Source: Parafilimonas sp. (GTDB lineage: Bacteria; Bacteroidota; Bacteroidia; Chitinophagales; Chitinophagaceae). From it: a DNA stretch of 36,518 bases. The notes under the pieces were generated by a model that saw only the letters and a list, made by a program, of their open reading frames with translations, searched no databases and had not been told where the DNA came from. How positions within the stretch are numbered: position 1 is the first letter of the stretch; each line of letters begins with the position of its first letter. The stretch covers positions 1 to 36,518 of the forward strand of contig JAICKT010000002.1 of assembly GCA_025927795.1 (NCBI GenBank). Reading direction: 5' to 3'. The position numbers were made by a program, and so were the translations under genes. Of the stretch, positions 24,794 through 32,675 are shown piece by piece.

Positions 24794-24867
24794 TGGAGAA
24801 TACCGGGCTCGAACCGGTGACCTCGACGCTGCCAGCGTCGCGCTCTAGCCAACTGAGCTAATTCCCC
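24794..24867 (-). tRNA. tRNA-Ala (anticodon GGC)
   Basis: The 74-nt cloverleaf reads from 24867 to 24794 on the minus strand. The acceptor stem pairs GGGGAAT with ATTCTCC and includes the G3-U70 pair that identifies alanine tRNA. The D arm is GCTC...GAGC, the anticodon stem CGACG/CGTCG with loop CTGGCAG, so the anticodon is GGC (reads GCC/GCU). The T arm is ACCGG-TTCGAGC-CCGGT. The discriminator is A, and CCA is not encoded (CAA follows). Confidence 0.97.
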
Positions 24868-24920: not shown

Positions 24921-26420
24921 TCAATCATTCAATGCTAAATCTTCATAGGTTTTTAAAATTTTCAGCAGCACACCATTTGTCCAGCCAAAACCGTCCTGCG
25001 ATGGATACTCTCCTCCACCTGCTGATAAATGCGTATCAACAACATTATATTTCTCCATCAGCTTGCCTGTGCTTTTATATACTTTAATATTTAACTGTGC
25101 CCAGCGTTTTGCAATTTCATGCGCAAGGTTTATTTCGCCATATTCATCCAAAGCTTTAATGGTAATCCATTGCAGAGGCGCCCATCCGTTTGGCCAATCC
25201 CATTGCTGCCCGGTATCTATCAACGTAGTTACAACACCGCCTGCCTGCAAAAAATTATCACGTATTACATCTGCTGCTTTAATAATTTTTTCTGAAGACG
25301 GAATATTAAAAAAGAATGGTGTAATACCTGCAATTGTTTGTTGTGTGCTGAATGTTTTTGCGTTTATGTTATAATCATAAAACCATCCATCATCTTCATT
25401 ATAAAAATATTTATTGATGGCATCTTCGCGCAGCATTGCTTTTCTTGTATAATTTTCTACTTCATTTTTATTTTCTGCATAACGATATGCTAATGCAAGT
25501 GATGATTCAAGATGAAATAACAAACAATTTAAATCAACCGGAACAATATTTATTGTATCAATTTGTGTAAACGTTTTTCCGTCTTTAAACCAACGTCCGC
25601 TAAAATCCCATCCACTTTCACAAGCAGCGCGCAAATTTTTAAAAAGTAAAGCATCATCACCATTATATTCTGCAGCTGTTTCCATTTCATGGCGATATGC
25701 TTCCGGTCTTGGTGTATCCAATTGATCGTAATAACGGTTAAGCAAACTGCCATCGGGCATTGTTACAACATGTTTTGTAGAACTGGTTTTATCCATCCAA
25801 AAATCATATTCTTTTTGCAGCTCGTTTAAATATTTTGAATAAATATGTGTGCCTTTATGCAATGCAAGCAATTCAACCATACAGGAAAAATAGGGCGGTT
25901 GCGATCTGCTTAAAAAATATGTTCTGTTTCCATTCGGTATATGTCCGAATTTATTTATTAAATAAGCAAAATTTTCTATCATGTTTTCAATAACATCCCA
26001 CTTATCGCTTTTAGCTAAGCCAAGCATAGTAAAATAAGAATCCCAATAATAAATTTCCTGAAATCTACCGCCCGGAACAATATATGGAAAAGGTAAAGCA
26101 ACAAGCGAACTGCCTTCAACAGGCTTGTCTGCATTGCGTTGCAACACTTCCCATAATTCCTCTATATGTTCAATTACATTATCTTTTAAATCTGTATGAT
26201 AACCCGGTGTGTGATGCGGCGGTATTTCAAAATTTGCTTCAACAAATTCTTTTATTTGTTCATTAGAAAGATTATTTGTTTTTAAGCTGATATAATCTTT
26301 TACTATAACCGCAGGATTTCTTTTTGGTATGCAATCAACAAAAGTTTTATTATCAGGAAATATTTTTTTAAGCTGAACATCTTTAAATAATGTTTTATAC
26401 AGTTCGTCTGGTGTGTGCAT
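24921..26420 (-). CDS. treF: Trehalase, cytoplasmic-type (GH37)
   Basis: This 499-aa glycoside hydrolase family 37 enzyme splits trehalose into two glucose. Both GH37 signatures are present: PGGRFQEIYYWDSYFTMLGL at about 114-133 and the second signature QWDWPNGWAPLQ at about 405-416. The C-terminal glycine-rich HLSAGGGEYPSQDGFGWTNGV is also typical. There is no signal peptide, which favours the cytoplasmic (TreF-like) form. It lies 74 bases downstream of the GDPD gene on the same strand and is followed by the tRNA-Ala gene. No trehalose transport or synthesis genes are in view. Confidence 0.96.
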   Translation of the reverse strand: MHTPDELYKTLFKDVQLKKIFPDNKTFVDCIPKRNPAVIVKDYISLKTNNLSNEQIKEFVEANFEIPPHHTPGYHTDLKDNVIEHIEELWEVLQRNADKPVEGSSLVALPFPYIVPGGRFQEIYYWDSYFTMLGLAKSDKWDVIENMIENFAYLINKFGHIPNGNRTYFLSRSQPPYFSCMVELLALHKGTHIYSKYLNELQKEYDFWMDKTSSTKHVVTMPDGSLLNRYYDQLDTPRPEAYRHEMETAAEYNGDDALLFKNLRAACESGWDFSGRWFKDGKTFTQIDTINIVPVDLNCLLFHLESSLALAYRYAENKNEVENYTRKAMLREDAINKYFYNEDDGWFYDYNINAKTFSTQQTIAGITPFFFNIPSSEKIIKAADVIRDNFLQAGGVVTTLIDTGQQWDWPNGWAPLQWITIKALDEYGEINLAHEIAKRWAQLNIKVYKSTGKLMEKYNVVDTHLSAGGGEYPSQDGFGWTNGVLLKILKTYEDLALND

Positions 26421-26494
26421 AATATATGCCTTTGGATTTTTTGAGCGTATAAATTTAGTGCGTCGGCTTGTGAATAACTATTTCTTTTAATTCT

Positions 26495-27264
26495 TTATTT
26501 GTAAAGATTGAAAAATTGGGTAAGCTCGTTAATATGGTCTGTATTGATAAAATCAACCTTTAAACGCATAAAAGTTTGCCAGCTGTTTTGGTTATCAGGA
26601 GCATCCCAAAAACGAACTTTCTTTTTTAAATGATGTGCTTTTATAATCGCCGCAGCTAAAGTTTGCCAGTCTTTTTCCGGAATGGAATCTTCACCGTTCC
26701 ATGATGAATAATATTTAAAATCATCACTCAGCATATTTATTTTTGAAAGCGCTGGTGCAGAATAATTTTTGCTTAAAATACCATCAAAATAAATATACGA
26801 AGGATACGAAATAAATTTTTCAGATGCTGGTCTATTACCGCTTATTGTAATTTTTATTTTGCTGCATTTAATTAACGAAGGATAATTCTTGCATACTTCA
26901 ATAAGCTTATCTAAAGTTCTTATTGAATCAGTTTTTATATCAATCAACAATTGCAGTTCTTTATTCTTATCAGCATAAGGGAAACCATTGTTCTTTTCTA
27001 TAACTGTTTTTAAAGGTTCTAAATATAAAGATTGTAAAGTGCGATTATTATTGAGTTCTTTTTTTGTATGCGCCACAAGCAGTTTGTTATCGAATAAAAA
27101 TATATCTGCTTCTATTGAACCAAAACCATTTCCCCATGCATCATAAAAAGGGTTTGCCTGTTCATAATCATTATGTGAGTGCGCGTTGGCAGTTGTATTT
27201 TTTTTGGTTGTGCGCAAACGTGAAAGGTGTTTATTAAAAAGAATAAGAACAATACATTTTTCAT
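26495..27264 (-). CDS. Exported GDPD/PLC-like phosphodiesterase, signal peptide split off by a -1 frameshift in an A8 tract
   Basis: Catalytic part: from about 27217 down to 26495 there is an intact TIM-barrel phosphodiesterase of the glycerophosphodiester/PI-phospholipase C type. It has the hallmark NAHSHNDYEQANPF and a metal-site segment SIEADIFLFDNKLLVAH. It has no ATG; a TTG at 27217 would start it without a signal peptide. On the minus strand, an ATG at 27264 begins MKNVLFLFFLINTFHVCAQ, a textbook signal peptide. That frame runs into a tract of eight A (plus-strand T8, 27198-27205) and leaves the enzyme frame. Nine A would join the two exactly. So one base is missing, or the cell uses slippage. 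The original gene is 26495-27264. See findings. Confidence 0.8.
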
Positions 27265-27342
27265 ACTAAGTATTACAGGAATGAAATCAGTTTAAACTAA
27301 AGTAATCATTTCACTGATTTATGTGAGCGTTAAATTATTTAA

Positions 27343-27391
27343 ATAAAAAAGGATGTGTAGAAACACATCCCGCTTACTTGTATTATTACTT
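27343..27391 (-). terminator. Intrinsic terminator after the duplicated DoxX gene, with conserved 15-mer
   Basis: On the minus strand GGATGTGT and ACACATCC form a perfect 8-bp stem (plus 27351-27358 and 27363-27370) with a 4-base loop, followed by TTTTTTATTTA. It is the terminator of the gene ending at 27436. Six bases upstream of the hairpin is the 15-mer AAGTAATAATACAAG (plus 27377-27391), which recurs exactly at two sites in the 29.6-30.0 kb array. Confidence 0.85.
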
Positions 27392-27435
27392 AAAACTTAA
27401 ATTTTATTTTGGCTTTAGCGATTCAAATTATTTAA

Positions 27436-28259: not shown

Positions 28260-29600
28260 TTATTTTATGCTTGACACTTCTTTTTTTGTTGACATTAATT
28301 TATCCATTACAAGGTCGCCGATTTTAATGCCCTGGTCTCTGCCTTCAACAATGGCTTTATAATAATGTATGCCTCCATAAAACCTGCTTAAAGAAACATC
28401 CCACGAACATTGGTTTAGTGATGTAAATTTTCTGTCTGCAAAGCCCCAATCTCTTTCTGAAGAATCAGTAAACGAAATTTTGTCTCCATATACTTTTGTA
28501 AGAAATTCAGCAGCCGCAGAAGAAATTACAGAGTGCCCGCTGATGTATTCAGGAAATGGCGGCGTTTGCAAAAATGGTTTCCAATTCGGGTCAATATATA
28601 AATTAATATAAGTTTCCGGGCGTATCATATCATAATAATATTTGTAATACCAGCATGCAATAAACGCATCAAACATACCTATTGAGGAACCTGTATAATT
28701 AAATACTGTTTGATACCAGTCTGCATTTTTATCCATGCTGATGGTGCCAATAATTTCCATCCAGTGTCCCGGCGGTGTCATAGCTTTTGTTGCAAACATT
28801 ACATGCCCTTCCTGGTGCATTTTAAATGAATTGCAATCCCAAAAATTTGATTGCCATTTTTGTGCATCGGTTAAAGCGTTCACAGTATCATAAACCTGTT
28901 TAGCCATTTTATAAAATTCACTTGTTGAATCTTTACTAAATGGCGGCGGCGGATTTATAGAAAAAACATTTGCCGAATCAAGTGTAAGCGTACGAATGGT
29001 TTGCCACTTTGGTTCAACAGCATCAAAATAACCCGGCGGTGTGGGCAACCAATGTCCATCCAAACCCGTAACTGTAAATTTTGAGCCGCGTGTTTTTCCA
29101 TAATTATCTTTTTTGCTCCATGAAAGAACTGAATCTGCCACGCGATTACCATAGTTCACAGAACTGTCAAACATTTCCTTCGTCATGTTTGTTTCTTTAG
29201 CAAGATTTTTTACTGAATCAATTAATGCATCCATTCTTGCTTCGGAAAAAGTAAGCGCTTTACCCACTTTCATCATAGCAATAACAGATGCAAAAGGGAA
29301 ATCAACTTTGTCTGGTTTTGCAGGTGAAGGAATATTTTTTAAATCTTTTATTTCTCTTTCAAGCGAAGCATAATGTTTTCCTTCTTTTGAAAGTGTTTCA
29401 TACGCCGCAAGATTTGCATACGCAAAAATGCGCGAAGCAACAGGTGGATTGAAGATGTCATAAATAACAACATAGTTTAACTCATGCATTGTTTTGCAAT
29501 ACAAATCAGGATTGTGCATTACTGTTTTATAATCCTTTTTATTGCATGAAGAAATTGCAGCAGTGCAAAAGATCAAACCAAAAACAACAACTTTTTTCAT
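28260..29600 (-). CDS. PAP2/vanadium-haloperoxidase-family lipoprotein
   Basis: This 446-aa exported lipoprotein (MKKVVVFGLIFCTAAISSC, lipid Cys19) belongs to the PAP2/vanadium-dependent haloperoxidase superfamily. The three phosphate/vanadate-binding motifs are present: KX6RP as K320...RP327-328 in YKYYYDMIRPE, the central YISGHS (SGH at 354-356; the canonical PSGH proline is replaced), and SRX5H with S405, R406 and H412 in LSRFYGGIHYY. The usual Asp four residues after that His is Ala here. It may be a phosphatase acting on lipid or sugar phosphates or a haloperoxidase; the sequence cannot decide. It leads the two-gene operon with DoxX and is preceded by the four-hairpin array. ATG at 29600. 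Confidence 0.9.
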   Translation of the reverse strand: MKKVVVFGLIFCTAAISSCNKKDYKTVMHNPDLYCKTMHELNYVVIYDIFNPPVASRIFAYANLAAYETLSKEGKHYASLEREIKDLKNIPSPAKPDKVDFPFASVIAMMKVGKALTFSEARMDALIDSVKNLAKETNMTKEMFDSSVNYGNRVADSVLSWSKKDNYGKTRGSKFTVTGLDGHWLPTPPGYFDAVEPKWQTIRTLTLDSANVFSINPPPPFSKDSTSEFYKMAKQVYDTVNALTDAQKWQSNFWDCNSFKMHQEGHVMFATKAMTPPGHWMEIIGTISMDKNADWYQTVFNYTGSSIGMFDAFIACWYYKYYYDMIRPETYINLYIDPNWKPFLQTPPFPEYISGHSVISSAAAEFLTKVYGDKISFTDSSERDWGFADRKFTSLNQCSWDVSLSRFYGGIHYYKAIVEGRDQGIKIGDLVMDKLMSTKKEVSSIK

Positions 29601-31127: not shown

Positions 31128-32675
31128 TTATTCTGCACCATCGTGTTCAGCTCTCAGCACTGCATAATTCCCAACCCTTTTACCTGCAACCATACCTGAA
31201 TCGCAATCCATTTGTGTATGAATCCCTGCAATAAACCTTGATTTTGCTGCTTCCGCAGACAAGGCTTCGTATTTAGCAGCATTGGCTGGTATAATATGAT
31301 CTAAAATGGTTGAAGCAGCTTCACTAAATGTTGAATGCCCAGATATATATGACGGAAAATTTGGGATACCGGTTAATGTTTTAATTTCAGGCATCATTTG
31401 CGTTGGACGCGGATTGAAATAAAAATATTTCGTGTTCCAACATACAATAGCTGCATCCATCTGACCCATATTTAATAAAGCCATATTCCGTGCCCAAAGC
31501 ACTTCACTATAATCTTGTTTGATGAAATCTTCTGCAGCAATTGCATTCCAGTGCCCTGTTGGTGTGTACGTGCCAGCACCATCAGCCCAAAACTGTACAA
31601 TTCTTTCCTGCTCTCTTGTTGGATTTTTTATTTGAACATAAGCAGCTTTATTTTGTTCTTCAAACTCACCACTTTTTGTGGAGTAAGGATAACCGGGACG
31701 AATTTTTGTTACCGTTATTGAATCAAATAAAAATGGCAACACATTACCATATAATGGCAGCATCGGCGGACGCTTTGGTGTTTCTAAACTAAACCATGGT
31801 GTTTCGCCGCGGGCTGTTGTGTTTGTTACAAACGCGCTCCATATATCAGGATTACCGCCAGCAGTACCCGCATGGTCTGTCTTTGCACGCGCAGTAAACA
31901 GCGCAGCAATTTGTCTTCCCAATGCTTCACCTGCATTTATATCAGTACGTGTTGCGGTGCCACTTTGTATGGCTGCTAATTCTTCGTCTTCTACTTTCTG
32001 CTGAATGTTTGCTACTTCAGTAGGAAACATCAGTTTAGTTATTTCAGAAGTTACACCTGCAAGCACAGCAGCTTCTGATGGATAAGAAGGCAAATCATTT
32101 TTTCCATTCATTGCATTAACACTTGCATCAACTGTGTATGGTGCTGGCTGATTATATAGTTTTTTATAGTACCAGCATGCAACAAGTGCATCATACTGTG
32201 CAGCGCTTATATAAGCAAATGCTCTTGCAGCAAATGGCGGATTTGAAAACGGGAATTGCGGATAGTTAAATGGATTTACAGAATTTGGAGCAGGGTATGT
32301 TCCATCTTCATTTTGATAAGGAGGAAGATTATGTTTTGCCACCATCTCACGAATAATTTCATTCCATCTTAAAACACCGCCGGCACCCCAATAACGAATA
32401 TTATTTATTGCATCATCGCTTAAATTTTCCTGGTAGCCTTTAATTTCATTCAGGTCTCCAATATATGCAGGTGTATTAGTTGCAGGTGGTGCAGCTACTG
32501 CAATTGCATCGGGACTCGCAAGCAAAACTGTTTTCCATGATCCTGCATTCAAATCTTGTGAAGCAGGATTAAGTGCAGGCAAATTATCTGTTCTTCCATG
32601 TACTTCTTTATTACATGAAAAATAAATTACAGAACTAAGTGCAGCAAATATTGAAAGTGATATTATTTTTTTCAT
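31128..32675 (-). CDS. PAP2/vanadium-dependent haloperoxidase lipoprotein
   Basis: This 515-aa exported lipoprotein has signal MKKIISLSIFAALSSVIYFSC (Cys21). It carries all the PAP2/haloperoxidase active-site motifs near the C-terminus: KX6RP as TKYFYFNPRPTQ, SYISGHSTFSEAA (SGH), and the complete SRX5HX3D, S479-R480-H486-D490 in SRFIAGIHTQMD. Unlike its paralogue at 28260 it keeps the final Asp. The N-terminal 120 residues are a lipoprotein-type extension. The gene lies 24 bases after the barrel gene at 32700 and 21 bases before the second barrel. The three form one operon, transcribed from the right. Confidence 0.92.
   Translation of the reverse strand: MKKIISLSIFAALSSVIYFSCNKEVHGRTDNLPALNPASQDLNAGSWKTVLLASPDAIAVAAPPATNTPAYIGDLNEIKGYQENLSDDAINNIRYWGAGGVLRWNEIIREMVAKHNLPPYQNEDGTYPAPNSVNPFNYPQFPFSNPPFAARAFAYISAAQYDALVACWYYKKLYNQPAPYTVDASVNAMNGKNDLPSYPSEAAVLAGVTSEITKLMFPTEVANIQQKVEDEELAAIQSGTATRTDINAGEALGRQIAALFTARAKTDHAGTAGGNPDIWSAFVTNTTARGETPWFSLETPKRPPMLPLYGNVLPFLFDSITVTKIRPGYPYSTKSGEFEEQNKAAYVQIKNPTREQERIVQFWADGAGTYTPTGHWNAIAAEDFIKQDYSEVLWARNMALLNMGQMDAAIVCWNTKYFYFNPRPTQMMPEIKTLTGIPNFPSYISGHSTFSEAASTILDHIIPANAAKYEALSAEAAKSRFIAGIHTQMDCDSGMVAGKRVGNYAVLRAEHDGAE

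Follow-up and report, generated by a model that had tools for sequence, protein, structure and literature searches.

A single-base indel, private to the window sequence, very probably cuts an otherwise intact gene for a normally secreted GDPD-like protein at the junction between its signal peptide and its enzyme. The window is the whole stretch of DNA analysed, 36,518 nt long; it is contig C253 of the 4.65 Mb, 676-contig assembly of an uncultured bacterium, with a GC content of 32% in the sampled part of the genome.

Reading frames, enzyme and neighbourhood

An earlier reading made from the letters of the window (the sequence-only reading) had placed on the minus strand an ATG at 27264 opening a clear signal peptide, and an A8 tract at 27198-27205 past which the enzyme lies one base out of frame. 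Both were borne out, the coordinates and frame of the signal peptide being exact, as were its count of 770 bases from 27264 to 26495, one short of a multiple of three, and its claim that the enzyme lacks an ATG of its own, none being found in the enzyme frame ahead of the catalytic HSHND motif. The translation from ATG 27264 is MKNVLFLFFLINTFHVCAQPKKIQLPTRTHIMIMNRQTLFMMHGEMVLVQ, followed by a stop that ends at 27112, while the enzyme frame has its stop at 26495-26497. TTG 27217, the sole standard start near the beginning of the enzyme frame, sits within the signal-peptide coding region. The context of the A8 tract is CCA AAA AAA ATA, which holds the in-phase heptamer A_AAA_AAA. The features of the locus are listed below.

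27208..27264, minus strand: signal peptide MKNVLFLFFLINTFHVCAQ in frame 1, from the sequence and its homology to the export signals of orthologues, such as MKQILTILLFINTICGIAQ of L015
27112..27264, minus strand: frame opened by ATG 27264, 50 codons to a TAG, with the enzyme lost past the A-tract, from translation
27198..27205, minus strand: A8 tract (T8 on the plus strand), site of the frame break, from the sequence and a one-nucleotide gap against seven homologues in the DNA alignment
26495..27217, minus strand: enzyme frame from TTG 27217, predicted GDPD-like phosphodiesterase of 240 aa, from the open frame, Pfam and the structural model
27350..27371, minus strand: intrinsic terminator behind the DoxX-like gene upstream, from a segment conserved downstream of DoxX in further members of the genus

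As written, the frame from ATG 27264 would give a 50-residue product without the enzyme, and the enzyme would be made only through inefficient initiation at the TTG, then without export, or through chance slippage.

The enzyme matched the Pfam family PF13653 (GDPD_2) with 35.4 bits (gathering score 27), over its C-terminal 29 residues only, and no NCBIfam match was found. An AlphaFold model built from 27 homologues was a barrel (pLDDT 96, pTM 0.92), whose best Foldseek match was the Parabacteroides GDPD 3no3, a distant one (TM-score ~0.55, E 2.9e-06), with several further GDPDs among the top matches. Against the PDB, phmmer with the single protein as query gave no match, and a profile search gave weak GDPD matches only. 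Residues H6, H8, N9, D10, E29, D31 and H43 were invariant among the 27 homologues. The family-model match, together with a predicted TIM-barrel carrying metal and acid-base residues, places the enzyme in the GDPD/PI-PLC-like phosphodiesterase superfamily. Matches to a GDPD-like protein were found in 134 of 399 genomes of the host's Bacteroidota family, and its sequence places the enzyme among the secreted GDPD-like proteins that are common there. Many homologues (within L015-L028 and L073-L096) are ~600 aa and some ~1,100 aa long, their frame running beyond the GDPD-like domain; the phosphodiesterase of the window is a short single-domain form.

As the DoxX-like gene upstream ends in this terminator, the phosphodiesterase gene is presumably transcribed on its own. 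The haloperoxidase-like/DoxX gene pair and the terminator segment are conserved in other genus members, with different genes coming after them, and an orthologue of the phosphodiesterase in another genome (G006) has different neighbours. On this gene order, the phosphodiesterase gene is a reshuffled neighbour here, and neither the genus members nor G006 gave operon evidence for a function coupled with its neighbours. Several further features of the surroundings were recorded. The intergenic stretch 27339-27414, which includes the terminator, is 86-94% identical in the genus members L069, L070 and L071, and in the latter two it follows the same haloperoxidase-like/DoxX pair and is itself followed by unrelated genes. 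A trehalase gene lies downstream of the phosphodiesterase, and the DNA of its start (26314-26428) is conserved at about 79-87% in most genus members. Two secreted or lipoprotein-like proteins of the PAP2/vanadium-haloperoxidase type are encoded close together at 28260-29600 and 31128-32675, with differing partners (the DoxX-like gene vs. a PF13557-type protein), and a tRNA gene occupies 24794-24867 on the minus strand (Rfam RF00005, 63 bits).

Homologues at the junction and the age of the break

Sixty-three homologues that carry the motif were traced upstream in frame and compared with the window (64 rows in all). All 63 crossed the junction in frame. By a simple heuristic, 55 of the 64 rows were signal-peptide-like; seven of the other nine had a hydrophobic stretch and no ATG in the scored piece, and the last two were the window itself and L018, whose frame also takes in an upstream domain. 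An upstream domain was likewise present in a second homologue, L040. When the window was aligned with seven homologues as DNA (eight sequences), the one single-base gap of the window fell exactly at the tract. Since the homologues join the two frames without an offset and a 1-nt gap lies at the A-tract, the signal-peptide and enzyme frames are read as one gene. The pattern is that of a lineage-specific frameshift indel, with homologues in frame and a one-base offset in one lineage.

The same comparison bears on whether the enzyme is instead a cytoplasmic protein started at TTG 27217, with the upstream peptide a separate small ORF. TTG is usable as a start and its frame is open. However, the frame of the homologues continues upstream into a segment resembling a signal peptide, or into a further domain in two of them. 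The TTG falls within the stretch coding for the signal peptide, and the upstream frame shows clear homology to the signal peptides of the orthologues. The sequence-only reading had named homologues that begin at the TTG and lack a signal peptide as speaking against its frameshift; these were sought, and none of the 63 started cleanly at the enzyme. A cytoplasmic enzyme is thus scarcely credible.

The enzyme part was then assessed for the decay that an old break would leave. The window kept every one of the columns with at least 90% conservation among homologues (36 of 36), and its mean identity to outgroup homologues was 0.462, compared with 0.445-0.468 for intact orthologues. The dN to the two nearest orthologues was 0.26-0.27, synonymous differences being saturated. 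By conserved columns, identity and dN, no sign of relaxed constraint or of an accelerated rate was found in the enzyme part. This lack of decay indicates that the break is either very recent or absent from the DNA of the cell; it argues, not decisively, against an old real mutation.

The A8 tract as switch, slippage site or by-product

The longest A-run in the 45 nt ahead of HSHND was 1-6 in the 63 homologues vs. 8 in the window. The nearest orthologues are L015, from the same genus (64% identity), and L073 (68% identity), whose junctions read AQPVKYTTSNAHSHNDYEQ and AQPTTYSTANAHSHNDYEQ, respectively; at the position of the tract both have mixed sequence, CCGGTAAAATAT in L015 and CCAACGACCTAC in L073. 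Six positions ahead of HSHND, 39 of the 64 rows have Tyr, both nearest orthologues included, and Asn occurs in the window alone. Joining the two frames by A9 would still give Asn at this conserved Tyr column, so a contraction from A9 to A8 would require a prior, separate Tyr-to-Asn change. A single base deleted inside the conserved Tyr codon, beside a shorter A-run, would itself create the A8, and one such loss would explain the frame break, the odd Asn and the A8 together. Parsimony therefore suggests that the base was lost from the conserved Tyr codon and that the event was probably a deletion; the A8 may be the result of the indel rather than its cause, which weakens the case for the A-tract as the origin of the break.

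To place the tract in its genomic context, 769 kb of the same assembly were surveyed (the window together with 119 contigs or contig ends). In coding context and with the frame kept on both sides, 165 A/T runs of at least 8 were found, as well as 474 A/T runs of exactly 7, and 112 A8 runs in coding context kept their frame. An A8 as such is not unusual in this 32% GC genome, while a broken frame is, with 1 case against 165 intact runs. Twenty-three frame changes flagged at homopolymers were filtered by start-codon distance, and eight of them were read in detail. These eight were rejected as breaks, since they resembled adjacent genes, gene boundaries or antisense reading; at L116:759, for instance, an acetyltransferase that starts from an ATG of its own comes after a polysaccharide-type membrane protein. 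The 828 candidates of an ab initio Viterbi frameshift finder were mainly antisense artefacts and adjacent genes, and this output was set aside as much too noisy. No convincing frame break was found at the other long A/T runs of the 769 kb, giving an upper limit of ~2% per run, and nowhere else in the sample was a signal peptide convincingly separated from its protein at such a run.

Slipped-strand mispairing at the tract might toggle the enzyme between an exported full-length form (A9) and an off state (A8), as would be conceivable where a poly-A run coincides exactly with the frame break in the gene of a secreted protein, and poly-A/T runs of at least 7 have been treated as possible phase-variation sites (PMC3711429). 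The tract was absent from every homologue (n = 63), however, so the repeat that relatives of a phase-variable gene would be expected to carry, conserved or variable, was not found; an A8 is short and, with the 112 frame-keeping coding runs, common in the genome, and the A9 form leaves the Asn unexplained. Nothing relevant on phase variation at signal peptides in Bacteroidetes was found in a search of the literature. Such a switch is very unlikely, and it is just as improbable that a recently gained A8 makes export of the GDPD-like enzyme switchable or leaky, through an A8/A9 mixture in the population or slippage during expression; if it did, cells would differ in secreting the enzyme.

Restoration of the frame at expression would need RNA polymerase to add an A within the tract, or ribosomes to shift by -1 at A_AAA_AAA, so that a fraction of the enzyme is full-length and exported. 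The slippery heptamer CC A_AAA_AAA is in phase and a -1 shift would yield the exact in-frame fusion; in Citrobacter rodentium, the broken gene tssM is rescued transcriptionally at an A11, at about 20% (PMC4256274). However, runs in the same phase are frequent in intact genes (108 A7 and 29 A8 in 269 long ORFs of the genome), so the heptamer alone is uninformative, and slippage of the E. coli RNA polymerase was undetectable below 8 A, which puts 8 at the limit (PMC6260861). Site conservation is a criterion for programmed frameshifting (PMC3711429) and would be anticipated in a programmed device; here the heptamer was present, while the slippage site was not conserved in the homologues and no downstream stimulatory structure was found (z -0.40 vs. 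shuffles), which argues against programmed frameshifting. Restoration at expression is thus extremely unlikely as the explanation, and low-level leakage through slippage is possible.

Cellular DNA or consensus error, and known systems

Among the four readings that the sequence-only reading had offered, a recent null mutation and an assembly error are supported by the homologue comparison, which lends no support to a phase switch or to slippage restoring export; the tract was found in no homologue. Between the former two, an indel in the DNA of the cell (a very recent loss of function) and an error of the assembly consensus, the odds are about even. The species is represented by one genome. The clean state of the other long A/T runs argues, not decisively, against a generally error-prone consensus: the assembly is not grossly bad at homopolymers, and a single error is possible. 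In the survey of PMC3711429, the expected cause of singleton breaks validated by homology (BLAST) is sequencing error and not a genuine indel.

Gene callers will annotate the TTG form as cytoplasmic and lacking a signal peptide, misplacing a protein that is secreted in relatives. The finding matters little alone; it serves as a worked example in which a homopolymer at a frame break suggests a switch and comparison leads to a plain indel.

The locus can be set beside three known cases. Similar to the secreted GDPD-like proteins of Bacteroidota (PF13653), the enzyme has the catalytic HSHND...EAD...H residues and the predicted barrel fold; those relatives have a signal peptide, and the interrupted reading frame is the sole difference here. 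With tssM1 of Citrobacter rodentium (PMC4256274) it shares a one-base frame break beside an A-run, A11 there and A8 here, whereas slippage was demonstrated for tssM1 and the present case consists of sequence with a non-conserved tract. The category i singletons of PMC3711429, ordinary frameshift indels or singleton frame breaks of bacterial genomes, are alike in these respects: the break occurs in one genome only, homologues are intact, the break is validated by homology and the rest of the gene is conserved, with no substantive difference, the A-run and the signal-peptide junction merely making the break look designed.
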